Positions 1-63,654 of a stretch of 64,000 bases of DNA are shown one piece after another. Each line of letters begins with the position of its first letter. The stretch's first letter is position 1. The notes beneath the pieces are model-generated. The model was not told the origin of the DNA and did no database searches. It saw nothing but the letters and a program-made list of their open reading frames with translations. Origin of the DNA: Gemmatirosa kalamazoonensis (lineage in GTDB: Bacteria; Gemmatimonadota; Gemmatimonadetes; Gemmatimonadales; Gemmatimonadaceae); the NCBI RefSeq assembly GCF_000522985.1, contig NZ_CP007128.1:124001-188000 (forward strand), in the 5' to 3' direction. The translations under genes were made by a program, and so were the position numbers.

Positions 1-366
1 GCGCGTCCCGACGGCCAGGTTCTGCTTCCCGAGCTCCGTCTCCACGGTGTGCGCCAGCGCGCTCGGGGACAGCCCCGCCGCGACCACATCGCCGAGCAGC
101 GGGATGGAGAGCTTGCCGTCGTCGCGGACCTTCGTCCGACCCGACATCTCGGCGTGGCTGAACACCTGCACCGTCACCACGTCGCCCGGGCCGAGGCGGT
201 ACTCGCCTCCCACCGGGGCCACGTCGCGCTCCGGGATCTGATCCACCCACACGAACGGGCCGGTGCCGTGCGCGCACGCGCCGGTCGCGAGCAACACGAC
301 CGGCGCGCCTAACAGCGCGACGTACCGCCGGCCACGCCGGGCGACGTCAGACAACAGCGACCGCAT
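1..366 (-). CDS. Wza-type polysaccharide export lipoprotein, 3' end outside window
   Basis: Outer-membrane polysaccharide export protein that would form or gate the export channel for the exopolysaccharide made by this operon. Only 122 codons are visible. A hydrophobic signal segment (residues 16-30) ends at Cys31, a plausible lipidation site although the lipobox is not ideal. Residues 54-115 match the Poly_export (Wza N-terminal) domain, with YRLGPGDVVTVQVF followed by a GKLSIPLLGDV-like strand. The ATG at 366 overlaps the 3' end of the flippase gene by 20 bp, so the two are probably coupled. It is the last visible gene of the minus-strand operon. The family assignment is good, but the complete architecture cannot be judged. 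Confidence 0.85.
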   Translation of the reverse strand, partial: MRSLLSDVARRGRRYVALLGAPVVLLATGACAHGTGPFVWVDQIPERDVAPVGGEYRLGPGDVVTVQVFSHAEMSGRTKVRDDGKLSIPLLGDVVAAGLSPSALAHTVETELGKQNLAVGTR

Positions 367-1921
367 GAGAGCTCCTTCGTCGACTCAGAATCCGGCTCGC
401 GACGTTCGCGAGCACGTCGTAATCCCCGGCCCGCCAGAGCAGCGCGAGCGCGCCGTACACCGCCGCGTCGACCGGCAGACGCGCGACACCGTACGGCAGC
501 AGCACGAGCCGATCGAGCGCGGCGACCACCGCGCACACGATCAGCATCTTGGCGAGCATCGCGAGCCCCGATCGATCGAACGCGCGGCCGCCGAGCGCCA
601 GCGTCAGCGCGCCCGCGCTGAACACCTCGTTCAGCGTGAGCGCGACACCGGCGCCGATCCCCGCCCCGCCGGCGCCGAACAGCGCGTGGCCCGCGGGGAT
701 GAGGAACCAGTTCAGCGTCACCGAGATGACCAGCGACGATACCGACACGGCGGTCACCGTCCAGCCGCGGCCGAGCGGGATGAGCGCCGTGCAGCTCACG
801 ATGCTCACATAGCCGAGCACGAAGCACGGCGCCGTGGCGCGCAGGCTGTCCGTCGCGGGTGCGAACTTCGCCCCGAACAGCACGCGCACGATGACGTCGG
901 CCCACAGGCCCATGAACAGCGCGATCGGCACCGACGCCGTGAGCACCAGGCGCATGGAGCGTCGCGTGAGCCGCGTGAACTCGTCCGGCGATCGCGACTC
1001 CGCGCGCGCGCTGAGCGGGAGCAGCACCCAGCCGAGCAGCGGCTCGAGCAACATGCCGATGCCGGCCAGGCTCGCTGCGGCGCCGTACCACCCGAGCTCC
1101 AGATCGCTCGCGCGGAACGAGACCAGCGTCACGTTGATGCGCCCCATCAGCGCCTGCGACAGGCTCGCCACGAAGAACGGCACACTCGCCGTCAGGACAG
1201 CGAGCGTCGCGCGCACGTTCACGCGCGAGCGCACCCTGACGTGTCGCCGAACCAGGACCTGGAGCCCGACGCCCTTGACCACCTCGGAGGCGAGCATCGC
1301 CGCCCCGACGCTCACCACGCCGCCCCCCGCGAGCAGGCCGACGAGCGCGCCGCCCCCCCACAGGATCTTCGACACGACGCCGAGCACCGAGAGGCCGTGC
1401 ACCTCGCCTACCGCGTGCAGCAACGCGCCGAGCGTCGCGTTGTTCACGACGAAGAGCTGCGTGAGCGCGAGCAGGAACACGAGGCGCAGCACCACTGGCG
1501 GGCGCCCCGCGATCGTCAATCCGACGAGCGCGGCGCCGATCAGGAGTACACCCAGGATCACGCGCACGACCACGAGGCCGGCGACGAAGTCACCCGCGTG
1601 CTCGCGCCGCGTCGAGACCTCCTTGCGGATGTACGTCTCGACACCGAGCCCGGCGAGCACGAAGAGTCCCGACGTGAACGCGTCGGCGAACTGGAAGCTG
1701 CCGAACAGCTCCGGGCCGAGCCACCGCGGCAGAAAGACGCGGATCACGAGCTGCACGCCCCACATCGCGACGAGCGACAGCCCGAGCTTCGTGGCGTTGC
1801 GCAGCGCCGCGACGACGTCCGAGTCGAAGCTCGACGTGGCGCTCGCCGCCGCGGTCACGGCGCGCTCGGTCGTCTCCGGCGGGGCCGACGGCTCGGCGAG
1901 AGGGGCGACGGTCGCGCTCAC
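347..1921 (-). CDS. Wzx-type polysaccharide flippase (MATE/MOP superfamily)
   Basis: Integral membrane protein of 524 residues expected to flip lipid-linked oligosaccharide units across the inner membrane. The protein is hydrophobic almost throughout with about a dozen predicted membrane segments, beginning near residue 45 (LRNATKLGLSLVAMWGVQLV), as in the polysaccharide synthesis/oligosaccharide flippase families. I chose the GTG at 1921 because it overlaps the stop of the upstream barrel gene as GTGA and leaves a short hydrophilic cytoplasmic tail. A longer reading frame to 2137 is an out-of-family extension. It could instead belong to a teichoic-acid or O-antigen branch, since substrate specificity is not visible. 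Confidence 0.85.
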   Translation of the reverse strand: MSATVAPLAEPSAPPETTERAVTAAASATSSFDSDVVAALRNATKLGLSLVAMWGVQLVIRVFLPRWLGPELFGSFQFADAFTSGLFVLAGLGVETYIRKEVSTRREHAGDFVAGLVVVRVILGVLLIGAALVGLTIAGRPPVVLRLVFLLALTQLFVVNNATLGALLHAVGEVHGLSVLGVVSKILWGGGALVGLLAGGGVVSVGAAMLASEVVKGVGLQVLVRRHVRVRSRVNVRATLAVLTASVPFFVASLSQALMGRINVTLVSFRASDLELGWYGAAASLAGIGMLLEPLLGWVLLPLSARAESRSPDEFTRLTRRSMRLVLTASVPIALFMGLWADVIVRVLFGAKFAPATDSLRATAPCFVLGYVSIVSCTALIPLGRGWTVTAVSVSSLVISVTLNWFLIPAGHALFGAGGAGIGAGVALTLNEVFSAGALTLALGGRAFDRSGLAMLAKMLIVCAVVAALDRLVLLPYGVARLPVDAAVYGALALLWRAGDYDVLANVASRILSRRRSSHAVAVV

Positions 1922-4011: not shown

Positions 4012-5832
4012 TCAGACCGCCCGGCGGCGGGCGTCGGCGACGCGCATGCGACGCAGGGATCCGCCGCCGACGCTGCTCGGCTCCGTCGACGGCGGGAGCA
4101 CCTCGGCGACGTCGTGCGTGTGGAACTCGGCCACGTTGACCGCGGGCGACGCGATCGTGTCGGGCAGCGCGGCGGGGGCGGCGGGACTCGCCGTGCGCGT
4201 GCCGAGCATCCGCTCCACCGGCACCGGCCACCGGCCGCCGAGCGTACGGAACGTCGCGACCAGCACGCGCAGGTCGACCGCGAGCGAGACGTGCCTAACG
4301 TACAGCAGGTCGTACTGGATCCACTGGTGGAAGTCGCCGTTCGCGCGGTCGTGGCGGCACACCTGCCACAGCCCCGTGAGGCCCGGCCGCACCGAGAGCC
4401 GCGCGTGCCGCCACGGCACGCAGATCTGGTTCTCGCGGAACGGCGACGGGCGCGGGCCGACGAAGCTCATCTCGCCCCGCACGATGTTCCACAGCTGTGG
4501 CAGCTCGTCGACGTTGAGCCGCCGCAGGACGCGCCCGACGCGCGTCACGCGGGGGTCGTGCGCCATCTTGAACTGCGGCCCGTCCATCTGCTGCACCGCG
4601 GCGAGCTGACGCTGCATGTCGTTCGCGTCCGTGCGCATGCTGCGGAACTTCCAGCAGCGGAACACGCGCCCGCCGCGGCCCTCGCGCAGGTCGCCGTAGA
4701 ACACCGGGCCGGGCGACGTGAGCGCGATCAGCGGCATGACGACCGCGAACACCGGCAGCAGGAACAGCAGCGCGAGGGCCGCGAGCACCGGCTCCACGAC
4801 CGCACGGCCCCGCAGGTACGCACTCGGCCGCACGTCGACCGCGGACGCGGCGGGCGCGCTGCTGTGCACGTGACGGCGCTGCAGCACGGGGCGCGCGACG
4901 GGCGGCTCGCCGGATGCCGGCTCCGCGCGGTCGTCATGCCCGGGCGTGCCCGCGGGCGTCACCGCACCCGTCGTGACGACGCGGTGGCGCATCGCCGCGT
5001 CGCGCGGCACCACCGCGTCGGGCGTCACGAGACACTGCGCGACCACCGCGCCGCGCTCCACGCGCGCCCGCGCGCCGACGAGCGACGGGCCGATGATGAG
5101 CGCGCCGGCCTCGACCTCGGCACCCTCGCCGAGCGCGATGCGGCCGAGCAGCCGCGCCGACGGGTGCACGCGCGCGCCCCGGCCGATGACGAGCGACCCC
5201 GCGTCCTCGCCGCGCGCCGCGCCGAGCGCCTGGGACGCCGCGGCCATCGCCTCCACCCGCGACTCCGCCAGCGCGAGCGCGCCCGCTTCGTCGTCGAGGT
5301 GCACGACGCGACCGTGGTACGGCGAGTCCTGGCTCGGAACGCCGCGCGCCGCCATCGCCGTGCGCAGCGCGGCGAGCGACGCCCACGGCAGGTCGGGGAT
5401 CGTGAGCAGGCACGCCACCGGCACGAGCGACGCGACGACGCCGGCGGGGAATGGCCACGTCACCGGCTCGAAGTAGCGCTGGATGCGGCGCACGCGCCCG
5501 CCCTCGCCGGCATGCACGTATTCCTTCGTGCCCGCGGGACTCGTCTCGAACGCGAGCAGGTTGCGCAGCATGCTGCCGTCGCTCGCCGCGCCGCCCACGA
5601 GATCGCGCAGCGGGAGTCCCTCGACCGGGTAGCACTCCGGCGCGATCACGAGCAGGTGGTCCGACGGCTCCCACCGCGCGAGCGGGTCCCGGAACGCCTG
5701 CGTCGGCACGACGTCGACGTCGGGGTGCACCGCGCGCACGGCGGCGGCGTACGCCGCATCGGGGGCGAAGCGCGGCACCACCACCAGGCGGTGCGACGTC
5801 ACCGCCGCGATGGCGAGCGAGATCTCCTCCAT
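4012..5832 (-). CDS. Initiating sugar-1-phosphate transferase with N-terminal nucleotidyltransferase-like and beta-helix domains
   Basis: 606 residues from the ATG at 5832. The C-terminal third is a bacterial sugar transferase (PssY/WbaP-type core): a membrane segment ([19 protein letters not shown]), [36 protein letters not shown] and PGLTGLWQV. It would load a sugar phosphate on undecaprenyl phosphate and start the repeat unit. The N-terminal 230 residues resemble a nucleotidyltransferase fold but lack its GGxGTRL signature, and residues about 230-300 are left-handed beta-helix hexapeptides ([24 protein letters not shown]). Such a fusion is unusual. The sugar transferase part is firm; the function of the rest is open. 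Start codons further upstream are possible. Confidence 0.88.
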
Positions 5833-6028: not shown

Positions 6029-7468
6029 CTACTGCAGCGGGAGGTGTGGCGGGGTGGAGAGCGCGGCGCGGCGCACCGAAGCTTCGACCGACAGCGAGGG
6101 GACGACTGGGACGACGACCGACGAGGGGACGTGCGAGGAGGCGCGCGCCGAGGGGACGCGCGTGCCGTTAGGCACCGGCGTGACGCGCGGCGATGCGGTG
6201 AGGACGGCGCCGGAGACGTGTCGACGCGCGCCGACGGCGGCGCCATCGGCCAAGAGCGAGCCATCGACGTTCGCGCCGGTGCCGACGTGTGCATCGGCCC
6301 ATAGCTCGCTCCGCGAGACGACGGCGCCGGCGTCGATGATCGCACCGGGCCCGATGCTCGTCGGGCCGACGACCACGGCGCGCTCGTCGACGAACGCGTT
6401 CGGGCCCACGAGCACGGGACCGATCAGGCGCGCCGTCGGGTGCACGAAGGCGGTCGGGTGCACGAGCGTGTCGCCGTCCTCTGACCATTCGGCGAACGGC
6501 ACGTACGTGCCGCCGTCGTCCGGCGTCGCCTGGCGGCGGGGGCCGGACTCGCGCGCCGGCGCGTCGACGCGCGAGCCGTCGAAGCGCGTCGTCTCGTGCG
6601 TCGACGTCTCGAGCCACAGCGTCTCGATGGCCGACCCGATCACCTCGTCGAGCGCGGCGGCGCGACGGTCGACCGCGCTGGCGATGAGCCACGAGCTCAC
6701 GCCGGCATAGGAGTGCAGGTCGAGGACGCGCGGGGACAGCCCCGCCACCTCGTGCACCGCGACGTGCTCGCCGTGCGCGTAGAGCCGCTCCAGAAGTCCC
6801 TGCTTGATGTCCTGGAAACCGGTCGCGGGGACGCGCTCGAGCACGTGGCGCTCGAACACGTAGACGCCGCCGGGCATCGCGGGCCACGACTGGCGCATCG
6901 CGTTGCGGCGGCGGTCGATCTCGACGACCGTCGTCGCCGCGGCGCCCGACTCGCGATGCGCGGCGAGCAGCGCGCGGAGATCGAGCGTGGGAATGAACGC
7001 ACCTTCGACGACGACGAAGCGCTCCGCGGTCGTCGCGAGCGCGGCATCGCGCGCGCACCCGGCCGGGCCGCGCGGCGCGGCGTCCTCGTAGTAGCTCAAC
7101 GTCATGCGCAGCGACGAGCCACCGCCGAACCGCTCGCGCACCGCGCCGGTCGCGGCGCCCGCGCACACCGCGGCGCCGCGCACGCCGCCCGCGCGCAGCC
7201 ATCGCAGCGGATAACTGAGGAGCGGCTCCTGCGCGACGGGGAGGAGCGGCCCGCGCAACGTGCGCTCGAACGCGCCGCCTCCCCACGCCGACACGCCGGC
7301 GAGCACGACACCCGCCACGGCGGCGCTCGCGTCCGGGTTGCGATCGACGGGCGCGCCGAGCGTGAGCCGCTCGTTACGGCGCTCGCGGTCGGACGTCATG
7401 AGGTGCGGTGACGAGCGATGCGCCGCGGTGCTCACGTGCGACGTGCTGGCGGCGTTCGGTTCGTTCAT
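6029..7468 (-). CDS. Nucleotidyltransferase-like protein with left-handed beta-helix C-terminus, catalytic signature degenerate
   Basis: 479 residues. Residues about 50-270 follow the sugar-1-phosphate nucleotidyltransferase fold, starting GVVLAGVSAWGG and continuing LPVAQEPLLSYPLRWL, but the expected GGxGTRLxPLT and the PKP lysine are missing. Residues 330-430 are hexapeptide repeats (VHPTAFVHPTARLIGPVLV, GPTSIGPGAIIDAGAVV) typical of the beta-helix of GlmU/GDP-mannose pyrophosphorylases. It is the first gene of the exopolysaccharide operon. It may be a non-catalytic regulator or scaffold, or an active enzyme with altered chemistry. An alternative start is Met24. Its fold resembles the N-terminal half of the next gene, suggesting a diverged pair. 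Confidence 0.7.
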   Translation of the reverse strand: MNEPNAASTSHVSTAAHRSSPHLMTSDRERRNERLTLGAPVDRNPDASAAVAGVVLAGVSAWGGGAFERTLRGPLLPVAQEPLLSYPLRWLRAGGVRGAAVCAGAATGAVRERFGGGSSLRMTLSYYEDAAPRGPAGCARDAALATTAERFVVVEGAFIPTLDLRALLAAHRESGAAATTVVEIDRRRNAMRQSWPAMPGGVYVFERHVLERVPATGFQDIKQGLLERLYAHGEHVAVHEVAGLSPRVLDLHSYAGVSSWLIASAVDRRAAALDEVIGSAIETLWLETSTHETTRFDGSRVDAPARESGPRRQATPDDGGTYVPFAEWSEDGDTLVHPTAFVHPTARLIGPVLVGPNAFVDERAVVVGPTSIGPGAIIDAGAVVSRSELWADAHVGTGANVDGSLLADGAAVGARRHVSGAVLTASPRVTPVPNGTRVPSARASSHVPSSVVVPVVPSLSVEASVRRAALSTPPHLPLQ

Positions 7469-11901: not shown

Positions 11902-12842
11902 AGGTCCTCATCACCGGCGGCGCCGGCTTCCTCGGCTCGCACCTGACGGACCGCTTCCTGCGCGACGGGCACGAGGTGGTGGGGATGGACAACTTCATCA
12001 CCGGGAGCCCCGACAACATCGCGCACCTCGCGGGGCACCCGGGGTACCGGTTCATCCGCCACAACGTCTCGGACTACGTCTTCATCGACGGACCGCTCGA
12101 CGGCGTGCTGCACCTCGCGTCGCCGGCGAGCCCGATCGACTACCTCGAGCACCCGATCCCCACGCTCAAGGTCGGCGCGTTAGGCACGCACAACGCGCTC
12201 GGCGTGGCGAAGGCGAAGGGCGCGCGCTTCTTCCTCGCGTCGACGTCCGAGGTGTACGGCGACCCGCTCGTGCACCCGCAGCCGGAGAGCTACTGGGGAA
12301 ACGTGAACCCCGTCGGCCCGCGCGGCGTGTACGACGAGGCGAAGCGATTCGCCGAGGCGCTGACGATGGCGTACCACCGCTACCATGGGGTGGACACGCG
12401 CATCGTGCGCATCTTCAACACGTACGGTCCGCGCATGCGGCCGAACGACGGCCGCGTCGTGTCGAACTTCATCGTGCAGGCGCTCCGCGGCGAGCCGCTC
12501 ACGATCTACGGCGACGGCTCGCAGACGCGCAGCTTCTGCTACGTGGAGGACGAGGTCGAGGGCCTCTACCGCCTGTTCATGCACGGCGACCCGGAGCCGA
12601 CGAACATCGGCAACCCGGTGGAGTTCACGGTGCGCCAGCTGGCCGAGCTGGTCGTGGAGCTGACGGGCACGTCGGCGCCGATCGAGTACCGCGACCTGCC
12701 CGTCGACGACCCGAAGGTGCGCCAGCCGGACATCACCCGCGCGCGCGGGATGCTCGGCTGGGAGCCCAAGGTGCCGCTGCGGGAGGGGCTGGAGCGCACG
12801 ATCGCGTTCTTCGAGCGCGCGCTGGAGACGGTCGACGCCTGA
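11898..12842 (+). CDS. uxs: UDP-glucuronate decarboxylase (UDP-xylose synthase), SDR family
   Basis: 314 residues of the extended short-chain dehydrogenase family. NAD-binding [10 protein letters not shown] (residues 7-16), catalytic Tyr145 and Lys149 in [25 protein letters not shown], and [15 protein letters not shown] all match bacterial UDP-glucuronate decarboxylases closely. It converts UDP-glucuronate from Ugd to UDP-xylose. The start overlaps the ugd stop as ATGA. dTDP-glucose 4,6-dehydratase is a possible misreading, but the PASPIDY and RMRPNDGRV signatures favour the decarboxylase. It faces the leftward epimerase gene with only about 10 bp between stops, filled by two tandem GCCTAAC words. 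Confidence 0.92.
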
Positions 12843-12852
12843 CGCCTAACGC

Positions 12853-13746
12853 CTAACGCAGGGCGGCGCGGATCGCGTCGTCGAGCGTGGGGTGCAGGTA
12901 CGCGTAGCCCGCGTCGAGGAGCGCACGGGGCACGGCGCGTTGGCTGACGAGCGCGGTCTCGTCGGCCTGGCGTGCGCCCATGAAGAGGCGCAGCGCGGTG
13001 CGCGGCACCTGGAGGAACGCCGGCCGGTGCAGCGCGCGGGCGAGCGCCTCGGTGAACTCCGCGTTCCGCGCCGGCGCCGGCGCGACGACGTTCACCGGGC
13101 CGCGCACCGCGTCCGTCGCGAGCGCGAAGTCGATCGCGCCGACGACGTCGTCGAGCGACACGTAGCTCATCCACTGTCGTCCGTCGTCGAGCGTGCCGCC
13201 GAGGCCGAGCCGGAACGGCAGCAGCAGCCGCGGCATCAGGCCACCGTGCTCGCTCAGCACGAGTCCGAAGCGCGTCCGGACGACGCGCACGCCGCCCTCC
13301 TCCGCCGGAGCCGTGGCGGCCTCCCACGCGCGACACACGTCGGCGAGGAACCCGTCGCCGGGCGCGCTCGACTCGTCGAGGACCTCGTCGCCGCGCTCGC
13401 CGTAGTAGCCGACCGCCGACGCGCTCACGAGCACGCGCGGCGGCCGCGCGACGCGCCCCATCGACTCGGCGACGAGCCGCGTTCCCTGCACCCGACTGCG
13501 GAGAATGTCGGCCTTCGTCGCGTCGGTCCACCGATCCGCGATCGAGCGCCCGGCGAGGTTCACCACGCCGTCGACGCCGTCGAGCGCCGCGGGGTCGAGC
13601 CGGCCGGCGGCAGGATCCCAGCCGACGTCGCCCGCGGCGCGCGGGGTGCGCGTGATGCGCCTAACGGTGTGCCCCAGCGCGCCGAGCCGCGCGACGAGCG
13701 CGCCGCCGATGAGCCCCGTGGCGCCGGTGATCGCGATCGTGGTCAT
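12853..13746 (-). CDS. TIGR01777-family NAD-dependent epimerase (YfcH/SulA-like)
   Basis: 297 residues. It begins MTTIAITGATGLIGGALVAR (Rossmann GxxGxxG), with VVNLAGRSIADRW, SASAVGYYG and FLADVCRAWEAA, and ends in the DUF1731 C-terminal segment (VPRTALRLFMG, GYAYLHPTLDDAIRAAL). Members are conserved in many bacteria, but the substrate is unknown. In other organisms relatives are near cell-division or photoprotection genes; no such context exists here. It is probably transcribed alone: the gene upstream on the same strand ends 236 bp away, with a palindromic repeat between. Confidence 0.9.
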   Translation of the reverse strand: MTTIAITGATGLIGGALVARLGALGHTVRRITRTPRAAGDVGWDPAAGRLDPAALDGVDGVVNLAGRSIADRWTDATKADILRSRVQGTRLVAESMGRVARPPRVLVSASAVGYYGERGDEVLDESSAPGDGFLADVCRAWEAATAPAEEGGVRVVRTRFGLVLSEHGGLMPRLLLPFRLGLGGTLDDGRQWMSYVSLDDVVGAIDFALATDAVRGPVNVVAPAPARNAEFTEALARALHRPAFLQVPRTALRLFMGARQADETALVSQRAVPRALLDAGYAYLHPTLDDAIRAALR

Positions 13747-14369: not shown

Positions 14370-14399
14370 GGCTGGCTCCAGTGGGGTGACGCGTGCACG

Positions 14400-15227
14400 T
14401 TAGGCCTCCCCGTCCCCGTCGTATTGAACGAATCCGACACGCCGCCGCTCGGCCGCGTAGGCGGCGGGGGTGACGCCGGCGAGCGCCCGGAACTCGCGCA
14501 CGAGGTGCGCCTGGTCGGCGTAGCCGGCGTCGTACGCCACCGCGGTCCACGGGCGCGGCGCGCCGCGCTGCACGAGCGACACGGCGTGCTGGAGGCGCAC
14601 CACGCGGGCGAGCATCTTCGGCCCGTAGCCGACCTGGCGCGCGAACGCCCGCTCGAGCCACCGCTCGCTCTTTCCGAGCGCGGACGCGACGGCGCGCACG
14701 CCGGCGCCGCCCCGCGAGCGGCGCATGAGCCCCACGGCGCGCCCGACGGTGGCCGTCTCGCGGCCGAGGGCGCCCGTGTGCGTCGACCGCGCGAGGAGGA
14801 TGCGCTCGGCGCACGCGACACGGTCCGCCGGCACGACCGTCGCCAGCGACTCCTCGAGCTCCGCGGCAAGGCGTCCCCACAGCGCGTCGAGCGGGACGTC
14901 GCGGTCGAGGAGCGCGTCGAGCGGCGCGTCGAGGAGCGCCGCGGCGGCGCCGGGGTGGAAGCGCACGCCGAACAGGTCCACGCGTCCGACGAGCGAGACC
15001 ACGCTCGCCGCGCGCATGGGGCCCGCTACGAACGCGTACGGCGCCGCCGCGAGATCGACGATGACGTCGGCGCAGCCGTCGGGGAGCACTCTGTTAGGCA
15101 CCGACCCGGCCGCCGTGCCGCGGATGCTCCAGTAGCACTGCACCCACGGCGCGAGCGCGGGCGACGGCGGCCACTCGACGTAGCCGGGGGTGCCTAACGG
15201 CGCGTCAGCCGCCCTGGCCGTCGCCAT
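14400..15227 (-). CDS. AraC-family transcriptional regulator
   Basis: 275 residues. The N-terminal part (WVQCYWSIRG, VLPDGCADVIVDL, GVRFHPGAAAALL) matches the DUF6597-type sensor domain found in many AraC regulators. The C-terminal part holds two helix-turn-helix units (VASALGKSERWLERAFARQV and AYDAGYADQAHLVREFRAL), ending with the usual GVTPAAYAAERR. It probably controls the glyoxalase-like gene that follows by 30 bp. The ATG at 15227 overlaps the 3' end of alkA by 23 bp. The alkA-araC pairing recalls Ada/AlkA alkylation-repair loci, but this protein has no visible Ada cysteine domain. Confidence 0.88.
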   Translation of the reverse strand: MATARAADAPLGTPGYVEWPPSPALAPWVQCYWSIRGTAAGSVPNRVLPDGCADVIVDLAAAPYAFVAGPMRAASVVSLVGRVDLFGVRFHPGAAAALLDAPLDALLDRDVPLDALWGRLAAELEESLATVVPADRVACAERILLARSTHTGALGRETATVGRAVGLMRRSRGGAGVRAVASALGKSERWLERAFARQVGYGPKMLARVVRLQHAVSLVQRGAPRPWTAVAYDAGYADQAHLVREFRALAGVTPAAYAAERRRVGFVQYDGDGEA

Positions 15228-22713: not shown

Positions 22714-23104
22714 ACGGCTGGGCGGGAACACCGGTGATGCGAAGGATGGTCGCGCGGAGATCCTCCGGCGCGAACGGCTTGTGCACGAACGCCGCGCCGA
22801 GCGCCGCGAGCGCGTCGACGCGCGTCGCGCTGCTCTCCGTGGACACGACGATGACGGGGAGGGCGGCGGTCGCCGGGTCGGCGCGCAGGCGGCGCAGCGT
22901 CTGCTCACCGTCGAGCACCGGCATGTTGACGTCGAGCAGCACGAGGTCGACGCGGCGCTCGGCGATCGCGCGCAGGGCTTCGGCGCCGTCGGCCGCCTCG
23001 CGCACGGTGCCTAACGGGACGCGGCTGAGGCGGAGCACGCGCGCCACCATCTTCCGCATCACGGTGCTGTCGTCGACGATGAGGACGTGGAGGGGGGAAG
23101 GCAT
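22655..23104 (-). CDS. CheY-like single-domain response regulator
   Basis: 149 residues. A complete receiver domain (VLIVDDSTVMRKMVARVL, phospho-Asp in VLLDVNMPVLDGEQ, Thr/Ser in VVSTESS, Lys in FVHKPFAP) is followed by about 20 extra residues ending LGRGYDF. It sits between cheD and cheX, so it may be the partner hydrolysed by CheX or an adaptation regulator. A second, more canonical cheY lies at 32068-32442. The ATG at 23104 is 5 bp after the cheD stop. Confidence 0.88.
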   Translation of the reverse strand: MPSPLHVLIVDDSTVMRKMVARVLRLSRVPLGTVREAADGAEALRAIAERRVDLVLLDVNMPVLDGEQTLRRLRADPATAALPVIVVSTESSATRVDALAALGAAFVHKPFAPEDLRATILRITGVPAQPYDDSDALPLAAALGRGYDF

Positions 23105-36830: not shown

Positions 36831-36864
36831 TCGTGCCTAACCGACCGAACCAGCGGGATCCGGA

Positions 36865-39103: not shown

Positions 39104-39156
39104 CGGCGCCGGGACGGGGGCGAGGGTGAGCGGCACGGGCGTGTGGGGCCCCGCGC

Positions 39157-49024: not shown

Positions 49025-49053
49025 GCGAGCGGCACTTCCGGCCGCTCCGGAGT

Positions 49054-50869: not shown

Positions 50870-50876
50870 CCGACTC

Positions 50877-51923: not shown

Positions 51924-52599
51924 TCGCGGCCGCGCGGCGGCCTGGATGCCGGAGCAGATCCCGGTGGAGGCGTTCGAGCTCCCCGAGCTCGAGATGCCGG
52001 AGCTGGAGCCGACCTACGACGCCGACACCCCGGTCACCGCGCGGGATCTCGAGGACGCGGTGCGCGCGGCGCTCGCGCGGCGCGAGGAGGAGGCGCTCGT
52101 CGAGCGCGAGCAGCTGCAGGCGGACGCGTACGCGGCCGGCGTGGCGCAGGGACGCGCGGAGGCTCAGGAAGCCGGACGCCTCGCGCTCGCGAGCGCGCTG
52201 GAGGCGCTGTGGCTCGCCGCCGAAGCGGTGCGCGAGGGCGAGGCGCGGTGGTTAGGCACGCTGCAGGACAACGTCGCGGCGCTCGCCTCGGCCGCCGCGC
52301 GCGTCGTCGTCGGGCGCGAGGTGCGCGACGACGACGGGCTGGTGCGCGATCTCGCGGCGCGGGCCACGGCGGAGTTCCCGCAGGACCAGTCGCTGCAGGT
52401 GCGCGTGCATCCGTCGGACCTCGACACGCTGAAGTCGACGCTCACCGAGTCGCGGCGCGCCGGCGAGGTGCGGTGGATCCCCGACCCGCGCGTGGAGCGC
52501 GGCGGCGTGGTGGTGGAAGGGCGCGAGCGCATCGTGGACGGGCGCGTGGACACGGCGCTCGAGCGCGTGTACCGCCGGCTGAGCGGCCACCATGCCTAA
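51901..52599 (+). CDS. fliH: Flagellar export ATPase regulator FliH
   Basis: 232 residues. A Pro/Glu-rich N-terminus, a long Ala/Glu helix with the FliH glycine pattern (AYAAGVAQGRAEAQEAGRLA), and a C-terminal domain (VGREVRDDDGLVRDLAARAT, LQVRVHPSDLDTLK, VERGGVVVEGRERIVDGRVD) match FliH/SctL. It tethers FliI to the export gate and C ring. The ATG at 51901 lies inside fliG; the next Met three codons on is equally possible. It overlaps the fliI start by 8 bp. Confidence 0.92.
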   Translation: MATMFSSDRGRAAAWMPEQIPVEAFELPELEMPELEPTYDADTPVTARDLEDAVRAALARREEEALVEREQLQADAYAAGVAQGRAEAQEAGRLALASALEALWLAAEAVREGEARWLGTLQDNVAALASAAARVVVGREVRDDDGLVRDLAARATAEFPQDQSLQVRVHPSDLDTLKSTLTESRRAGEVRWIPDPRVERGGVVVEGRERIVDGRVDTALERVYRRLSGHHA

Positions 52600-54004
52600 C
52601 GCGAATCGGTCCGCGCGCACGGCGCGCCTCACCCCGCCCGGCGGCATCCTCACGGTGTCGCCCGGCGAGGATCCGACCACGGCGCTCCTCGGCCTGCTCG
52701 ACGACTGTCCGCGCTTCGGCACGTACGGCAAGGTGACGCGCGTCGTCGGCCTCGTGATCGAGGCCGCGGGGCTCGACGTCGGGCTCGGGGAGCTGTGCCG
52801 CATCACGTCGCTCGCCGGCGACCAGTCGGTGCTGGCCGAGGTCGTGGGCTTCCACGAGCGCGGCGTGCTGCTCATGCCGCTCGGGGAGATGGACGGGCTG
52901 CACCCCGGCAGCTCGGTGCTGCCGTTAGGCCGCTCGTTCGGGGTCGACGTCGGTCCGGGGCTGCTCGGCCGCATCCTGAACGGCCTCGGCCACCCGATCG
53001 ACGGCAAGGGGAAGCTCGACGTGGAGGAGCGCGTGCCGCTCGCCGCCGAGCCCCCGAATCCGCTCGTGCGCGAGATGGTGAGCGAGCCGATGGAGACGGG
53101 CGTGCGCGCGATCGACGGCACGCTGACGTTCGGGCGCGGCCAGCGCGTCGGCATCTTCGCCGGCTCGGGCGTCGGCAAGAGCACGCTGCTGGGCATGATC
53201 GCCCGCCAGGCGCGCGCCGACGTGAACGTGATCGCGCTGCTCGGCGAGCGTGGCCGCGAGGTGCGCGAGTTCATCGAGCACTCGTTAGGCCCGGAGGGGC
53301 TCGCCCGCTCGGTGCTCGTCGTCGCCACCGGCGACCAGGCGGCGCTCGTGCGGGCCCGCGGCGCGCTCGTCGCCACGGCGATCGCCGAGTACTTCCGCGA
53401 CCAGGGGAAGCAGGTGCTGCTCATGGTCGACTCGGTGACGCGCGTCGCGATGGCGTGGCGCGAGATCGGCCTCGCCGTCGGCGAGCCGCCGACGACGAAG
53501 GGTTATCCGCCGTCGGTGTTCGCCGCCCTGCCCCGGCTCCTGGAGCGCGCGGGCAACGGTGAGCGCGGCGGGATCACCGGCATCTACACCGTCCTCGTGG
53601 ACGGCGACGACTTCAACGAGCCCGTGGCCGACGCCGCGCGCTCGATCCTCGACGGCCACGTCGTGCTCACGCGCAAGCTCGCCGCCGCGGGCCACTTTCC
53701 CGCGATCGACGTGCTCGACTCGAAGAGCCGCGTGCGCGACCAGATCATCACCCCCGAGCACAAGGGCGCGGCGAACGCGCTGCTGAAGCTCGAGGCGGCG
53801 TATCGCGAGAAGGAGGACCTCATCCTCGTCGGCGCGTACCAGCGCGGGAGCGACCCGATGGTCGACGCGTCGATCGCGCTGCGCGAGCAGGCGCTCGGCT
53901 TCCTGCAGCAGCGCCCCGACGAGGCGAGCAAGTACGACATGACGCGCGCGACGCTCGCGCACCTCGGCAAGCAGATCGCCGCGCAGTCGCGGCGGGGAGC
54001 CTAA
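52592..54004 (+). CDS. fliI: Flagellum-specific export ATPase FliI
   Basis: 470 residues, F1-beta-like. Walker A is GIFAGSGVGKSTLLG, Walker B QVLLMVDSVTRVAMAWREIG, and PPTTKGYPPSVFAALPRLLE and GSITGIYTVLVDGDD-type GGITGIYTVLVDGDDFNEP are diagnostic of type III ATPases. It energises export of rod, hook and filament subunits. Two GTTAGGC words lie inside the gene, and both its start and stop codons fall within GCCTAAC. fliJ starts 3 bp after its stop. Confidence 0.97.
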   Translation: MPNANRSARTARLTPPGGILTVSPGEDPTTALLGLLDDCPRFGTYGKVTRVVGLVIEAAGLDVGLGELCRITSLAGDQSVLAEVVGFHERGVLLMPLGEMDGLHPGSSVLPLGRSFGVDVGPGLLGRILNGLGHPIDGKGKLDVEERVPLAAEPPNPLVREMVSEPMETGVRAIDGTLTFGRGQRVGIFAGSGVGKSTLLGMIARQARADVNVIALLGERGREVREFIEHSLGPEGLARSVLVVATGDQAALVRARGALVATAIAEYFRDQGKQVLLMVDSVTRVAMAWREIGLAVGEPPTTKGYPPSVFAALPRLLERAGNGERGGITGIYTVLVDGDDFNEPVADAARSILDGHVVLTRKLAAAGHFPAIDVLDSKSRVRDQIITPEHKGAANALLKLEAAYREKEDLILVGAYQRGSDPMVDASIALREQALGFLQQRPDEASKYDMTRATLAHLGKQIAAQSRRGA

Positions 54005-54007
54005 CGG

Positions 54008-54508: not shown

Positions 54509-55366
54509 ATGGGCATGGTGCGTTTGATGATGCCGTTCCTCGTCGGGCTGCTGCTCGGCGTCAGCGGCACGACGGCGATGAAGATCCAGCAAGCGAAGAG
54601 CGCCGCGCCGCTGGTCGGCGTGATGCCGACGCGCGCGCCGGCGAAGGCCGCGCCCGCGCACCCGGCGGCGCCGGAAGGCGGCGAGCACGCCGCGGCCGAC
54701 TCGTCGAGCGTGCCCGCGACCGCGCCGGTCGACAGCGCGGCGCACGACGGCGCGGCGCACGACAGCGCGGCGCACGACAGCGCGCGGGCGCCGGCTCCGG
54801 AGAGGACGGCGGGGCCGGTGACGATCGGGACGGTGCCGCGACGCCCGGTGGACCGGCCGCGCACGACGGCGCCGGCGACGCACGCGCCCATCACGCCCAC
54901 GCAGGTCGCGTCGAACGAGACGCCGGCTCCGGCGAGCGGCACGGTGCCGGCCGCGGTGCCTAACGAGCCGTCGAGCGGGACGCCGAACACCGCGTCGCCC
55001 GCCCCGCGCAGCACGCCGCCGGCGCGGACGCCGAAGGAGCCCGCGCACCGCGCCTCCGCGCGCGCGGACTCGGCGGCGGTGATGGTGCGGTCGCCGAAGC
55101 CGCTGGTGGAGACGCGGATCGCGTCGGCCACGGCGGCGGCGCGCGCCGACGGACCGCCGGAGCGCCGCCTCGCGAAGGTGTTCGGCAACATGGCGGCGAA
55201 GGAGGCCGCGCGGGTGCTCGAGCAGATGGAGGATCGCGACGTGCAGACCATTCTCGCCCTGCTCGCCGACCGCCAGGCGGCGGCGATCCTCGCCGCGCTT
55301 CCCGCGCCGCGCGCCGCGGCGCTCGGCAAGCTGGCGCTCCGTACCCCGACCGCGGGAGGCCGCTGA
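54509..55366 (+). CDS. MotE-like protein with C-terminal MgtE N-like domain
   Basis: 285 residues. An N-terminal membrane anchor (MMPFLVGLLLGVSGTTAM) is followed by a very long Pro/Ala/Ser/Thr-rich linker with DSAAHDGAAHDSAAHDS repeats. The C-terminal domain (LAKVFGNMAAKEAARVLEQM, LALLADRQAAAILAALP) is the MgtE-N-like unit of MotE, a periplasmic stator chaperone that often lies between fliJ and fliK. The linker is far longer than in known MotE, a point worth noting. Its last base is the first base of the next start codon. Confidence 0.8.
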   Translation: MGMVRLMMPFLVGLLLGVSGTTAMKIQQAKSAAPLVGVMPTRAPAKAAPAHPAAPEGGEHAAADSSSVPATAPVDSAAHDGAAHDSAAHDSARAPAPERTAGPVTIGTVPRRPVDRPRTTAPATHAPITPTQVASNETPAPASGTVPAAVPNEPSSGTPNTASPAPRSTPPARTPKEPAHRASARADSAAVMVRSPKPLVETRIASATAAARADGPPERRLAKVFGNMAAKEAARVLEQMEDRDVQTILALLADRQAAAILAALPAPRAAALGKLALRTPTAGGR

Positions 55367-55977
55367 TGCAGGTCACGAGTGCGGGGCTGCTCGACACGCT
55401 GAGCGGCGCGTCGACGGGCAGCCGGACGCCTAACGATCACACGTCGCCCGCCGACTCGCCGGCGTTCGCGTCCATGCTGACGGCGGCGATGACGCCGCCG
55501 CCGCGCCCCGAGCCGCCGCCCCGTCAGGAGCCGGCCGCCGAGTCGCTCGGCGATCGCGACGAGGGGACGTCGGAGGAGACGGGCGCCGAGGGCACGTCGA
55601 CGCGCGGCACGACGGCGCGCGCCGACCGGACCGACCGGACCGACCGGACCGACGACGTGGACGCGCGGCGCCAGGTCGGGCGGCACGAGGCGCGCGACGT
55701 GGCAGGCGAGGACGCGCACGGCGACGCGGGCACGCGCGACGACGACGAGACGCGGCGAGCGGCGCGACGACCGCCGCGGGGGCCCCCCCCCGAGAGCACG
55801 ATGCCGCTGCCGCCGCCGACGCGACGAACCATTCCGACGCCGCCGATGCCACGAGCGCGGCACGCGGCCGACGCCACGAGCGCGGCGCGCGCGGCGCGCA
55901 CGACGCGAAGGATGCCGACGGCACCGAGGGCGCCGCGGGCGCCGACGCGACGAACGGCGCGGCCGCGACGGACGTGA
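55366..55977 (+). CDS. fliK: FliK-type hook-length protein, N-terminal part (frame broken at a 9-C tract)
   Basis: 203 codons. Residues 1-138 look like a FliK N-terminal half: MQVTSAGLLDTLSGASTGSR, then acidic low-complexity sequence (EGTSEETGAEGTSTRG, DRTDRTDRTDD). After a run of nine C (55783-55791) the frame becomes Pro/Arg-rich and looks like shadow sequence (PTRRTIPTPPMPRARHA). The neighbouring frame from that point gives a plausible continuation that leads directly into the next entry. One added C would join them. It may therefore be the first part of one gene with the following entry, either switched by slippage or misassembled. Confidence 0.6.
   Translation: MQVTSAGLLDTLSGASTGSRTPNDHTSPADSPAFASMLTAAMTPPPRPEPPPRQEPAAESLGDRDEGTSEETGAEGTSTRGTTARADRTDRTDRTDDVDARRQVGRHEARDVAGEDAHGDAGTRDDDETRRAARRPPRGPPPESTMPLPPPTRRTIPTPPMPRARHAADATSAARAARTTRRMPTAPRAPRAPTRRTARPRRT
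55783..55791. repeat. Homopolymer tract G5C9
   Basis: Five G (55778-55782) followed by nine C (55783-55791). The two halves of the fliK region are in different frames on either side; ten C would make them continuous. Confidence 0.9.
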
Positions 55978-57221
55978 CGCAGATCGCGCGCGCGCTCGAT
56001 GGCGTCGACCCCGAGCTCCGCGCGCGGCTGGAGCGCGTCGTGGAGCGCATGCGCGACGAGACGGGCCACGACGTGCAGGCGGTCGAGAGCACGCGCACGC
56101 AGGAGCGGCAGGACTTCCTGTACGCGCAGGGCCGCACGCGCGACGGCGACGTCGTGACGTGGACGCGCCACTCGCGCCACACCGCCGGCGAGGCGGTGGA
56201 CGTCACCGTGGACGGCGGGTGGAGCGACCGCGCGGGGTTCGAGGCGCTGCAGCGTGTGGCGCGCGAGGAGGGGCTGCGCACGCTCGGCATGCGCGACCCC
56301 GGCCACCTCGAGATGCCTCGCAGCGCGCACCCGTCGGCGGAGCAGGTCGCGGGCGCGCAGGTCGCGGGCGCGCAGGCAGCGGTGGAGTCGACGGTCGACA
56401 CGGCCGCGACGATCGACGGCGCGCGTCACGCATTCGTGCAGGCGGCGCACGCCGCGCTCGCCGCGCAGCGGCAGGGCGACGCGTCGCGTGGCTCCGACGG
56501 CGGCGATCGGCGCGGCGGCTCGCGGCAGGCACCGCGCGACACGAGCGCCGTCACGGCGGGGTCGCGCCGCGCGGGCGAGCCGGCGGGCGACAGCGCGGCG
56601 AGCGCGTTAGGCAGCGGCACGGGCGCGACGACGTTCGCCGACGTGTCCGCCCGCGTGGCGGCCCCCGCCCCAGCGGCGGGCGTCGATGCCGCGATGCGCG
56701 TGGCGCAGCTGCTCGACGCGCGCGAGGCGGCGCCGGCGCAGCCGATGTCGTCGATCACGCTGCGGCTCGAGAACCTCGCCGGCGGCATCGATCGCATCCG
56801 CGTCGGGCTGCGCGGTCTCGAGGTCGGCGCGTCGATCGACCTCGCGGACCACGCTGCGGCGGAGCGGATGCGCGCGAGCGTGAACGAGCTGCGCGGCGCG
56901 CTCGACCGGCACGGCCTGACGACGGACACGGTGCAGATCTCGAGCGTCGGGCGCGGCGCCGAGGCGATCGACGCCGGACGGCTCGTCGCCGCGGCGGCCG
57001 GCACGTCGGGCGCGGAGCGCTCCGGCGCGGGCGGCTCGTCGTCGCAAGGCTCGCAGCAGGGCGCGCAGCAGCAGGGCCGCGACGCGCAAGGGCGCGACGC
57101 GCAGGCGCGCGACGCCCAGCAGCGCGACGCGAACGATCAGCGCCGGCAGCGGCGCGACGCCGACAGCCCGGACGACACCGATCCGCGCGGCGGGCGCCGC
57201 CCGCGACGCGACGGCCGTTAG
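55974..57221 (+). CDS. fliK: M15-type peptidoglycan peptidase domain fused to a FliK C-terminal domain
   Basis: 415 codons from a GTG overlapping the previous stop (GTGA); the true start may be upstream across the C-tract. Residues 15-115 match M15 D-Ala-D-Ala/L-Ala-D-Glu peptidases: HSRHTAGEAVDV gives zinc ligands His69 and Asp76, and DPGHLEMP gives His111. Residues about 240-320 match the FliK C-terminal hook domain (SITLRLENLAGGIDRIRVGL, MRASVNELRGALDRHGLTTD). The tail is Gln/Arg/Asp-rich low complexity (GRDAQARDAQQRDANDQ). It lies where fliK belongs, before flgD and flgE. A dual role in wall penetration and hook-length control is inferred. Confidence 0.75.
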   Translation: MTQIARALDGVDPELRARLERVVERMRDETGHDVQAVESTRTQERQDFLYAQGRTRDGDVVTWTRHSRHTAGEAVDVTVDGGWSDRAGFEALQRVAREEGLRTLGMRDPGHLEMPRSAHPSAEQVAGAQVAGAQAAVESTVDTAATIDGARHAFVQAAHAALAAQRQGDASRGSDGGDRRGGSRQAPRDTSAVTAGSRRAGEPAGDSAASALGSGTGATTFADVSARVAAPAPAAGVDAAMRVAQLLDAREAAPAQPMSSITLRLENLAGGIDRIRVGLRGLEVGASIDLADHAAAERMRASVNELRGALDRHGLTTDTVQISSVGRGAEAIDAGRLVAAAAGTSGAERSGAGGSSSQGSQQGAQQQGRDAQGRDAQARDAQQRDANDQRRQRRDADSPDDTDPRGGRRPRRDGR

Positions 57222-57265
57222 GCATCGGTTAGGCATCCGTCAGGCATCACCCTTCCCCGACCCCC

Positions 57266-58036: not shown

Positions 58037-58066
58037 ACGGCTGCCTAACCCGCATCCCTTTCATCG

Positions 58067-59872: not shown

Positions 59873-60436
59873 ATGTCCGCCGACGCTCAGACGCCGCCGG
59901 CCGCCGATTCGTCGCCGAGCAAGATGAAGGCGATGATGCCGTTCGCCCTCGCCCTCGTGCTCGGCCTCGCGGTCGGCGGCGCGTCGGGCGTGTTCGTCGT
60001 GGGCCCCGCGATGGCGAAGGGGATCAGCCCCGCCGCCTCCGCCGCGCGCCCTGCCCGCGGAACCGACGCCACGGCGTCCGCCGAGGACGCGTCGGCCGAA
60101 GGCGGCGACGGCGAGGCGAAGCCGGGCGAGAGCACGAACCAGGTCTACACGCTCGACAACCTCGTGCTGAACCCCGCCGAGTCGGGGGGCACGCGCTTCC
60201 TGCTGCTCTCCGTCGCGTTCGAGACGACGAGCGCCGCGCTGCTCGAGGACATGAAGACGCGCGACGCCGAGCTGCGCGACGCGGTGCTCGTGACGTTAGG
60301 CGCGAAGACCGTCGAGCAGCTCGCCGACATGCGGCTCCGCGAGCAGATCAAGGCCGAGCTGACCGTCGCCGCGCGCAAGCTGTTCAAGAAGAAGGCGACG
60401 CTGCGCATCTACTTCCCGCAGTTCGTCATCCAGTAA
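59873..60436 (+). CDS. fliL: Flagellar basal body-associated protein FliL
   Basis: 187 residues from the ATG at 59873. A cytoplasmic tail, one membrane helix (MMPFALALVLGLAVGGASGV), an Ala/Asp-rich linker and the periplasmic stomatin-like domain (VYTLDNLVLNPAESGGTRFL, ELRDAVLVTLGAKTVEQL), ending LRIYFPQFVIQ, match FliL. It surrounds and supports the stators. fliM follows by 9 bp. Confidence 0.93.
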   Translation: MSADAQTPPAADSSPSKMKAMMPFALALVLGLAVGGASGVFVVGPAMAKGISPAASAARPARGTDATASAEDASAEGGDGEAKPGESTNQVYTLDNLVLNPAESGGTRFLLLSVAFETTSAALLEDMKTRDAELRDAVLVTLGAKTVEQLADMRLREQIKAELTVAARKLFKKKATLRIYFPQFVIQ

Positions 60437-61931: not shown

Positions 61932-61947
61932 CCGCCGGACCACTCCG

Positions 61948-63654
61948 ATGACCGCGAGCGCCACCCTCGGCGTCTTCGTCGCGTTAGGCGCCGTCCTCAC
62001 GCTGCTCCTCGTCGCGCTGCGGCTGCTGAAGCGATTCAGCCCCACGCTCGGCGGCGCGCGGAACCGCCTCCCGATGGAGGTGGTGCAGCGGCTGCCGCTC
62101 GGCCCGAAGCAGTCGATCGTCGTCGTGCGCGTCGGCGAGAAGGTGCTGACGATGGCGGTGAGCGACGGCGGCATCCGGCAGCTCGTGGAGCTGGACGGCG
62201 ACGACCGCGCCGCGGTGCTCGCGTCGTCGTCGACGCCGGTGCCGTTCGAGAGCTCGCGCTCGGCGTCGTCGGGCGTGGTCGCGGCGCTCACGGCGCATCC
62301 GGAGCTGCTCGGCCTCCCCGGCGCGGCATGGCTGCGCACGACGCTGGCCCGCCGTGCCGCGGCCGCGCGGTCGGCGCCTGACGCGTCGGCCGACGGCGTC
62401 GGCGAGGCGTCGGGGGCCGGGTCGGCCACCGGGTCGGCCGGCGCAGCCGACGACGCGGCGCCGTCGTGGCTCGCGGCGATCTCGACGCCCCCGGGGGGCG
62501 TGTCGCGGATCATGCTCGACGTCTCGGCGCCCGCGGCTCCGGCGCGCGCCGCGTCTCCGGCCGGCGCCGACGCGTTCCGCTCGATGCTCGGCATGGCGCT
62601 CTCCTCGGCCACGAAGCTCGCGCTCGTCGGCGCGGTGCTCGGCGCGCTCGCCTGGACGCCGTCGCGCGCCGCCGCGCAGGCGCGTCCCGACAGCGCTGCG
62701 CCCAACACGCCTAACGCGCCTAACGTCACCGCCGCACCCGCTCCCGCCGCACCCGCTTCCGCCGCTACGGCTCTTCCAGTCCTTCCCGCCGCGACCCGGG
62801 CGGCCCTGTACCAGAACGCGCTGCGCCAGGCCGCTCCCGCGCGGCTCGGTCGCGGACGCGACACGCAGGCGCCGGCGGGGCCCGGCGGCCAGCGCACCGG
62901 CCCCGCGCCGATGGCGCCGGGTGCGTCGGCGCCCCGTGGCGCGCCGGCGAGCGCGGACACGATGATCGCCCGCCTCGCCCCACAGCTCGATCTGCGCGTC
63001 GCCGGCGGCAAGGGCGACGGCCTGCGGCTGAGCGGCACGGTCGGCATCGTCGTCATGATGGGCGTGCTCACGCTGCTGCCGACGCTCGTGCTCATGATGA
63101 CGGGCTTCACGCGCATCCTCATCGTGCTGCACTTCCTGAAGCAGGCCCTCGGCACGCAGAACGCGCCGCCGAATCACCTCGTCGCCGCGCTCGCGCTGCT
63201 GCTCACGGGGTTCGTCATGGGCCCCACGCTCTCCACGGTGAACCAGACCGCGCTGCAGCCGTGGCTCGCCGGGAAGATCGAGCAGGCCGAGATGATGCAG
63301 GTCGGCGTGCGGCCGTTCCGCGAGTTCATGCTGCGGCAGACGCGCGAGCGCGACCTGCAGACGTTCGTCGAGATGAGCCACGTGGAGCAGGCGCCGAAGA
63401 CGGTCGAGGAGGTGCCGCTCGTCGTCGTCATGTCGGCGTTCGTCACGAGCGAGCTGCGCACCGCGTTCCAGCTCGGCTTCGCGCTCTTCCTGCCGTTCAT
63501 CATCATCGACCTCGTCGTGAGCTCGGTGCTCATGAGCATGGGCATGATGATGCTGCCGCCGGCGATGATCGCCCTGCCGTGCAAGCTGCTGCTGTTCGTG
63601 CTCGTCGACGGCTGGACGCTCGTCATCCAGAGCGTGGTGCAGTCGTTCAAGTGA
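61948..63654 (+). CDS. fliP: FliO-FliP fusion, flagellar export gate protein
   Basis: 568 residues. Residues 1-95 are FliO-like: a membrane helix (GVFVALGAVLTLLLVALRLL) and the cytoplasmic segment LPMEVVQRLPLGPKQSIVVV, VGEKVLTMAVSDGGI. A 250-residue Ala/Pro/Ser-rich linker follows, including a helix ending in a signal-like TPSRAAAQA. Residues about 350-568 are complete FliP: MMTGFTRILIVLHFLKQALG, NAPPNHLVAALALLLTGFVM, TFVEMSHVEQ and VVSSVLMSMGMMMLPPAMIA. One frame covers both with no internal stop. fliQ, fliR, flhB and flhA do not follow. Confidence 0.9.
   Translation: MTASATLGVFVALGAVLTLLLVALRLLKRFSPTLGGARNRLPMEVVQRLPLGPKQSIVVVRVGEKVLTMAVSDGGIRQLVELDGDDRAAVLASSSTPVPFESSRSASSGVVAALTAHPELLGLPGAAWLRTTLARRAAAARSAPDASADGVGEASGAGSATGSAGAADDAAPSWLAAISTPPGGVSRIMLDVSAPAAPARAASPAGADAFRSMLGMALSSATKLALVGAVLGALAWTPSRAAAQARPDSAAPNTPNAPNVTAAPAPAAPASAATALPVLPAATRAALYQNALRQAAPARLGRGRDTQAPAGPGGQRTGPAPMAPGASAPRGAPASADTMIARLAPQLDLRVAGGKGDGLRLSGTVGIVVMMGVLTLLPTLVLMMTGFTRILIVLHFLKQALGTQNAPPNHLVAALALLLTGFVMGPTLSTVNQTALQPWLAGKIEQAEMMQVGVRPFREFMLRQTRERDLQTFVEMSHVEQAPKTVEEVPLVVVMSAFVTSELRTAFQLGFALFLPFIIIDLVVSSVLMSMGMMMLPPAMIALPCKLLLFVLVDGWTLVIQSVVQSFK

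Follow-up and report, generated by a model that had tools for sequence, protein, structure and literature searches.

Here we analyze a 64 kb window of the chromosome of the soil bacterium Gemmatirosa kalamazoonensis (positions 124001-188000 of contig C2, NZ_CP007128.1, in the genome we refer to as G000; "the window" denotes this whole stretch), in which the heptamer GTTAGGC recurs both inside and between genes. An exact-match search returned 38 copies, 16 on the forward and 22 on the reverse strand, reproducing every copy that the original prediction had counted by hand (Table 1) as well as the tandem copies and the inverted pair at 30721/30744 that it had described, the latter spanning 30 b over all, below the 57-141 b size range that passages of PMC3053210 give for integron attC sites. 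It had also been proposed that nearly every TTAGG in the window belongs to the word, and 38 of the 39 occurrences of TTAGG/CCTAA do fall inside GTTAGGC. The base 5' of the window copies is C in 32, G in 4, and T in 2.

Base composition alone predicts 5.7 copies, in line with the earlier estimate of 5-6 by chance, while Markov models of order 1, 2, and 3 predict 1.4, 1.3, and 2.5, with GTTAGGC ranking first by z-score among the window's 7-mers at each of these orders. The expectation rises to 29.7 at order 4 and to 38.0 at order 5. An order-5 model, which had been suggested as a check, therefore does return the observed count, but the agreement is circular because nearly every TTAGG lies in the word, so that the model's input of 5- and 6-mers already consists of the word; orders 0-3 fail to predict the count.

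The window also contains a word-free gap at 39155-52251 that had been pointed out beforehand and is real, with a length of 13,096 b that makes it the longest among the G. kalamazoonensis stretches examined (P = 0.007 for 38 copies placed at random in 64 kb). According to Pfam, its genes encode a sigma-54 regulator, cation efflux, a peptidase, and flagellar proteins (rod protein, FliE, FliF, FliG). None of its 26 slots, i.e., codon pairs able to carry the word, is filled, compared with about 4.7 expected (border copy at 52251 excluded). We considered a foreign island as an explanation for the gap and dropped it, as Pfam shows ordinary flagellar and other genes with no foreign sign.

Table 1 Copies of GTTAGGC in the window, all located by exact match, with their context and any further basis for it
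Position	Strand	Context	Further basis
307..313	-		
4293..4299	-		
6167..6173	+		
12179..12185	+		
12844..12850	-	tandem with 12851, between two called gene ends	gene calls
12851..12857	-	over epimerase-like gene end	Pfam
13659..13665	-	inside epimerase-like gene	
14399..14405	+	over AraC-type regulator gene end	Pfam
15093..15099	+	inside AraC-type regulator gene	
15192..15198	-	inside AraC-type regulator gene	
19966..19972	+	inside BNR-repeat gene	Pfam
20731..20737	-	tandem pair with 20743	
20743..20749	-	tandem pair with 20731	
23009..23015	-	intergenic	gene calls
24923..24929	+		
28085..28091	-	inside CheA-type kinase gene	Pfam
29316..29322	-		
30721..30727	-	inverted pair with 30744, inside hybrid histidine kinase gene	Pfam
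30744..30750	+	inverted pair with 30721	
31977..31983	+		
35631..35637	-		
36835..36841	-	intergenic, adjoins flagellin gene	Pfam
39155..39161	-	at gene end, left border of 13 kb gap	gene calls
52251..52257	+	right border of 13 kb gap	
52594..52600	-	over gene junction	gene calls
52924..52930	+	inside FliI-type ATPase gene	Pfam
53284..53290	+	inside FliI-type ATPase gene	
53999..54005	-	over FliI-type ATPase gene end	gene calls
54958..54964	-		
55428..55434	-		
56606..56612	+	inside FliK-like gene (Pfam match below cut-off)	
57217..57223	+	over FliK-like gene end, tandem pair with 57228	
57228..57234	+	tandem pair with 57217	
58043..58049	-	intergenic	gene calls
60295..60301	+		
61983..61989	+	inside gene with FliO and FliP domains	Pfam
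62709..62715	-	inside FliO/FliP-domain gene, tandem pair with 62718	
62718..62724	-	inside FliO/FliP-domain gene, tandem pair with 62709	

As to whether the excess might be confined to the window, it proved to be genome-wide. The G000 assembly has four contigs (20,952, 5,311,527, 1,106,233, and 1,040,503 b) that comprise a chromosome, two megaplasmids, and a 21 kb element, and in its 7,479,215 b the octamer CGTTAGGC, the main extended form of the word, occurs 2275 + 2194 = 4469 times, or about 597 per Mb, with the two strands near equal here as in other word-bearing genomes. The reversed word CGGATTGC occurs 70 + 63 times in the whole genome; we treat this control as a rough guide only, because the rare TAG/TTA steps are absent from CGGATTGC, and prefer Markov orders 0-3.

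Further G000 statistics come from a 704 kb sample, made up of 32 stretches of 20 kb plus the window and covering about 10% of the genome, with gene calls from a simple custom script. In this sample, GTTAGGC occurs 496 times vs. 14.3, 38.2, 345.7, and 485.7 expected at Markov orders 2, 3, 4, and 5, and CGTTAGGC 429 times vs. 18.2 at order 3, making them the top 7-mer and 8-mer at that order (observed/expected 13 and 24). Neither maximal-order nor order 4-5 tests reveal the word, because the excess is carried by the word's own sub-words. A few copies in the sample are counted twice, as the 21 kb contig (L001) repeats about 5 kb of itself and mostly recurs in another stretch (L002); without L001, 477 copies stand against 35.6 at order 3. 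Density lies between 0.3 and 1.1 per kb in every sampled stretch, whether from the chromosome, either megaplasmid, or the 21 kb element.

The word has a sharp core. At order 2, the 429 copies of CGTTAGGC compare with 8.0 expected, and among the 24 one-mismatch octamers compared, those in more than 2.5-fold excess are TGTTAGGC (46 vs. 1.5), CGTTGGGC (83 vs. 29.7), GGTTAGGC (15 vs. 3.6), CGTTAGTC (9 vs. 3.0), and AGTTAGGC (6 vs. 1.2). The first base of the octamer is relaxed, from C to T and weakly to G or A: the base 5' of GTTAGGC is C in 86% of copies and T in 9%, and on the 3' side G (47%) or A (34%) follows, then C (49%).

Most copies lie in genes, with 382 of the 496 inside called genes, 69 intergenic, and 45 across gene edges. 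The clustering at gene ends that had been noted is weak: positions within genes are roughly flat, although those 45 copies do straddle an edge. Several reading frames are in use, as had been noted, but unevenly, with the in-gene copies read 224 times as TTA GGC, 117 times as CCT AAC, and 41 times otherwise. Inside the word fall 224 of the 229 TTA codons in the sample (223 of 234 when gene calls differed slightly, L001 was omitted, and two stretches were added), along with 22 of 47 TAA and 30 of 105 TAG codons. In other carriers, the word holds 156 of 202 TTA codons in G030, 64 of 75 in G020+G211, 48 of 76 in G028+G251, 28 of 51 in G011, and 12 of 19 in G019, vs. 0 of 13 in baseline genomes. 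Word-capable Leu-Gly slots are filled at 223/1821 in G000 and 64/167 in G020+G211 vs. 0/499 in baseline genomes, and Pro-Asn slots at 121/332, 15/35, and 0/81, respectively. The intergenic and coding densities (copies per kb) are 0.90 and 0.59 in G000, 0.75 and 0.52 in G030, 0.64 and 0.59 in G019, 0.88 and 1.36 in G020+G211, 0.20 and 0.27 in G011, and 0.14 and 0.24 in G028+G251.

We also compared a single gene, rpoB, across 24 genomes (18 word-bearing and 6 baseline, all rpoB copies counted). At 8 conserved Leu-Gly sites, this comparison revealed 34 word copies, which are spread over 13 of the 18 word-bearing genomes and absent from all 6 baseline genomes; further copies lie outside these 8 sites, and the alignments show a change from CTC GGC to TTA GGC that is gapless in relatives keeping Leu-Gly. 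Sharing of rpoB sites across genera (182 vs. 95 in shuffles) is not used as evidence, because the shuffle takes account of neither common descent nor the limits on which codons before a site may end in G. No near-word remnants were seen in word-free genomes, in small and partly overlapping samples. Together, the TTA-codon, slot-filling, and rpoB results argue that the word enters genes through substitutions, for the most part silent ones, and not by insertion, which agrees with the original prediction that selection acts on the DNA and spends rare codons to do so.

Copies of the word also keep their distance from one another. At separations of 60-300 b, we count 29 vs. 72.5 expected (standard deviation 7.5) in G000, 19 vs. 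42.1 (standard deviation 5.5) in G030, and 0 vs. 3.6 in G028+G251, all significant. The deficit persists against a null matched to usable Leu-Gly and Pro-Asn slots (6 vs. 14.2 at 60-150 b and 9 vs. 23.6 at 150-300 b), and of 153 7-mers with comparable counts, none but the word and its shifted register falls this low at 60-300 b. Slot filling climbs with distance to the nearest other copy: it is 3.6% where that copy is 100-200 b away and 26% where it is 1.2-2 kb away. Over all pairs, the avoidance holds for same-direction (50 vs. 92), convergent (14 vs. 42), and divergent copies (16 vs. 42), and close inverted pairs are rare.

The copies show no orientation bias relative to replication: even the most favorable origin placement assigns only 54.7% of 386 sampled chromosomal copies to one sense, vs. 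54.3% for the null. Chi of Escherichia coli is likewise an over-represented octamer, and it differs from the word in being polar and without mutual avoidance in the same tests, which gave 74.3% for 101 Chi sites in 450 kb of E. coli K-12 and 8 vs. 5.6 at 60-300 b. With m6A methylation, polar sites, and a site-by-site mutational process set aside (see below), we are left with a function that recognizes the word in both orientations and becomes saturated within a few hundred bases, which suits DNA uptake by fragments.

Among relatives, the word is patchy. At least 150 copies of CGTTAGGC are present in 35 of the 270 Gemmatimonadales genomes searched, with 0-93 in the others, and three of these 35 are weak carriers (G103 with 172, G053 with 181, and G040 with 168), G103 and G053 having fewer copies than of the reversed word. 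Outside the order, 0 of 173 sampled genomes of the phylum reach 150, the highest count being 67. At least 4 gains or losses are needed to account for the well-supported branches of an RpoB tree of 24 genomes. Word-free G015, which belongs to the clade next to G000 and has 26 copies in its 5.9 Mb, falls together with word-bearing G030 (support 92/90), and the two stand beside G000 (100/100); G207, also word-free, is placed close to word-bearing G020 and G211 (87/78). Flank preferences vary between genera in small samples, with the core constant. Our search for competence genes was limited to comEC, dprA, and GspH-type pilins. Both comEC and dprA are present in G000, and across the chosen genomes comEC was found in 73 of 80, dprA over cut-off in 46 of 52, and GspH-type pilins in 38 of 52.

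We propose, with a probability of about 0.5, that YGTTAGGC, in most cases CGTTAGGC and often followed by R-C, serves across the genome as a recognition word of DNA-uptake-sequence type. A surface receptor, probably type IV pilin-like, would bind word-bearing double-stranded DNA from the environment, which would enter through the ComEC channel and presumably recombine by homology. Preferential uptake of word-bearing alleles would let the word build up by drive at any place where the protein code permits a silent change, with diminishing returns once one copy sits within a few hundred bases. The observations behind this proposal are the excess, the mostly silent origin, the lack of polarity, the avoidance, the lineage pattern, and the presence of comEC and dprA. 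Three roles had been suggested originally, and an uptake word fits best among them in view of the absent polarity, mutual avoidance, substitution origin, and sharp core, while a methylation target found no support in the published m6A motifs and a polar recombination or segregation site none in the sampled orientations.

Uptake words have been described for Pasteurellaceae and Neisseriaceae (in passages of PMC1939737), and the relevant parts of PMC1939737 and PMC1626085 report even spacing, no orientation bias, origin by point mutation, and few single mismatches; none of the properties from those passages of PMC1939737 that we tested was contradicted by the word. Like the DNA uptake sequence (DUS) of Neisseriaceae and the uptake signal sequence (USS) of Pasteurellaceae, the word is short, non-palindromic, hugely over-represented, alike on both strands, and without polarity, and it shares with them even spacing, point-mutation origin, a sharp core, and small flank differences between genera (as far as the account in PMC1939737 goes). 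As with the USS, copies are mostly in genes, at 382/496 here vs. 65% of Haemophilus influenzae copies (same passages of PMC1939737). Unlike the DUS and USS, it belongs to another phylum, has another sequence, is a putative uptake word with a predicted receptor, is patchy among relatives that keep comEC and dprA, and has a core equal to an integron recombination box. In Neisseria, the DUS receptor is ComP (according to a portion of PMC3868556). The open-access literature searched holds nothing pairing "DNA uptake sequence" with "Gemmatimonad" (subscription papers and preprints fell outside its scope), and among the open-access matches listed for competence, uptake, or natural transformation in Gemmatimonadota, or for the heptamer, none concerns this word.

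Several observations weigh against an uptake role. None of comEC, dprA, and GspH-type pilins tracks the word, all being found in word and baseline genomes alike, and the literature searched shows no uptake, binding, or transformation data for Gemmatirosa. On the 21 kb phage-like element, the word is as dense as in the host (0.95 per kb), although an uptake word would not be needed there. In rpoB, the word is missing from 5 of the 18 word genomes, including all four of family f2, and some copies are non-silent, at least one of them at a site with Phe in relatives. The 60-300 b avoidance is not significant in G020+G211 (21 vs. 26.3), G019 (2 vs. 4.8), or G011 (2 vs. 2.9), and slot filling drops again, to 11%, beyond 2 kb from the next copy. 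Same-direction copies less than 30 b apart exceed chance (32 vs. 11.0, pooled), several very close copies being visibly short tandem repeats. Divergent pairs are short at 500-1000 b (50 vs. 86), a shortage that the uptake model does not predict and that gene layout may explain. The divergent order GCCTAAC..GTTAGGC is attC-like, and convergent pairs at the same distance number 94 vs. 86 (pooled, six groups).

The main rival to an uptake word is an intracellular, orientation-free protein-binding word, with copies spaced about 0.5-2 kb and a role in nucleoid organization, repair, or replication-fork handling. The same sequence facts fit it, from the lack of polarity and the mutual avoidance to the presence on all replicons and the rise in slot filling toward 1.2-2 kb. 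We nevertheless judge it rather unlikely, since the absence of the word from relatives such as G015 would be odd for a basic chromosomal function and copies follow the available Leu-Gly and Pro-Asn slots; in addition, no candidate protein was found in a search limited to the comEC, dprA, GspH-pilin, and integron-integrase families.

A word kept by base modification or biased mismatch repair with no uptake role, as with the highly iterated palindrome HIP1 of cyanobacteria, appears improbable. HIP1 is also an octamer, and is equally dense (300-2700 per Mb) and equally patchy across relatives, but it is palindromic and tied to methyltransferases (in the sections of PMC4390886 concerned). By contrast, CGTTAGGC is non-palindromic (reverse complement GCCTAACG), and repair or mutation acting on each site separately does not account for avoidance at 60-300 b. 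Our statement on methylation is limited to N6-methyladenine (m6A) and does not cover 5-methylcytosine, which single-molecule real-time sequencing detects poorly. The published G. kalamazoonensis methylome reports only the three m6A motifs RGATCY, ATGCAC, and CCAGN7TCA (PMC3974934). GTTAGGC is not on this list, which lends no support to m6A methylation of the word, be it as the methylation target suggested originally or as the target of a restriction-modification or BREX system.

A polar site akin to Chi, to FtsK-orienting polar sequences (KOPS), or to architecture-imparting sequences (AIMS), read by a recombination nuclease or translocase, would likewise be short, frequent, and in genes, yet it is highly improbable: the strand-bias check proposed for such a site yielded the near-null split given above where Chi scored far higher, Chi shows no avoidance, and avoidance between copies of the word in opposite directions is no weaker than between same-direction copies.

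GTTAGGC also fits the attC core box of integrons, whose attC sites are bounded by RYYYAAC and GTTRRRY boxes (in the portion of PMC3053210 that defines them). An integron integrase gene is present on the 1.1 Mb G000 megaplasmid (G000:C3:856836-857774, open frame of 327 aa), adjoined by attC sites of 96-97 b in stretch L061 (G000:C3:836001-856000), a cassette array with about 15 attC-like sites. The boxes of this array (n = 15) read GTTAGGC in 8 cases, GTTAGAC in 5, and GTTGGGC in 2. In the array of baseline genome G035, GTTAGGC occupies 22 of 24 attC-like sites with C 5' of the box in 24 of 24, and in that of G065 it occupies 14 of 14, while two short attC sets (L066 and L078) have it in 1 of 3 boxes each. 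The arrays of G035, G065, and the G000 megaplasmid all carry the octamer CGTTAGGC, and the long ones in L063 (G035:C95:1-20000) and L064 (G065:C5) lie in genomes without the genome-wide word. Integrase over cut-off was seen in 43 of 80 chosen genomes of the order.

The word resembles the attC core in that genuine arrays within the order contain exactly this heptamer, preceded by C. It differs in that attC sites are paired, folded, and in arrays whereas dispersed word copies are single, and in that the G000 array boxes vary more than the genome-wide word. Because only 8 attC-like matches occur outside arrays in 664 kb of G000 on both strands, the dispersed copies are, by their sequence context, not attC sites. 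An origin of the dispersed copies as integron relics, whether scattered attC sites or integrase landing sites, is largely refuted, as copies are single and often in frame (e.g., in rpoB) and as integrase does not track the word over 80 genomes (17 of 34 word vs. 26 of 46 baseline genomes, P = 0.65), the box match and the family f1 genomes at least 95% complete (12 of 12 word vs. 23 of 29 baseline, P = 0.16) being what speaks for it. A match to one given heptamer on either strand has a prior chance of about 1 in 8000, but the match of word and attC box was noticed after the fact among many conceivable motifs and is therefore only suggestive. It is doubtful, though conceivable, that an uptake tag converged on, or was chosen for, the attC core box, coupling uptake specificity to cassette capture; cells preferring CGTTAGGC DNA would then import cassettes, many with the word in both outer attC boxes, and the tag would spread through the genome by drive.

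Other repeats and elements were observed alongside the word. Arrays of the heptamer GGGACTC that turn into their reverse complement GAGTCCC, with long hairpins possible, lie at 15846-16068 and 42990-43095 of the window, with arrays of this type also in L010, L013, L014, L015, L019, and L032; they are possibly slippage-prone terminators. The 10-mer ACTCGGGACT has 0 of its 38 window copies in called genes. A second array family, with unit AGGGCAGG in both orientations, occupies 31297-31412 and 40086-40285. The 21 kb contig L001 (G000:C1) repeats itself after 14,997 b, as would a circle of about 15 kb whose sequence was read beyond one full turn. Its genes include those for a phage-type integrase and a DUF5906 protein, its word density matches that of the host, and most of it is found in the chromosome as well (L002, G000:C2:1-20000). 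An unrelated repeat family in L044 (G003:C1:1-20000) places about 31 copies of words such as CATTGAAG in 20 kb.

Collectively, these findings indicate that a DNA word can govern nearly all use of a rare codon, TTA, in a genome of high GC content. If GTTAGGC is an uptake word, it would have originated independently in Gemmatimonadota, outside the two families where such words are known, and relatives with and without it would form a comparative system for why uptake words arise, spread, and vanish. Because the word is identical to an attC box, whether uptake preference and cassette capture are linked can be tested directly.

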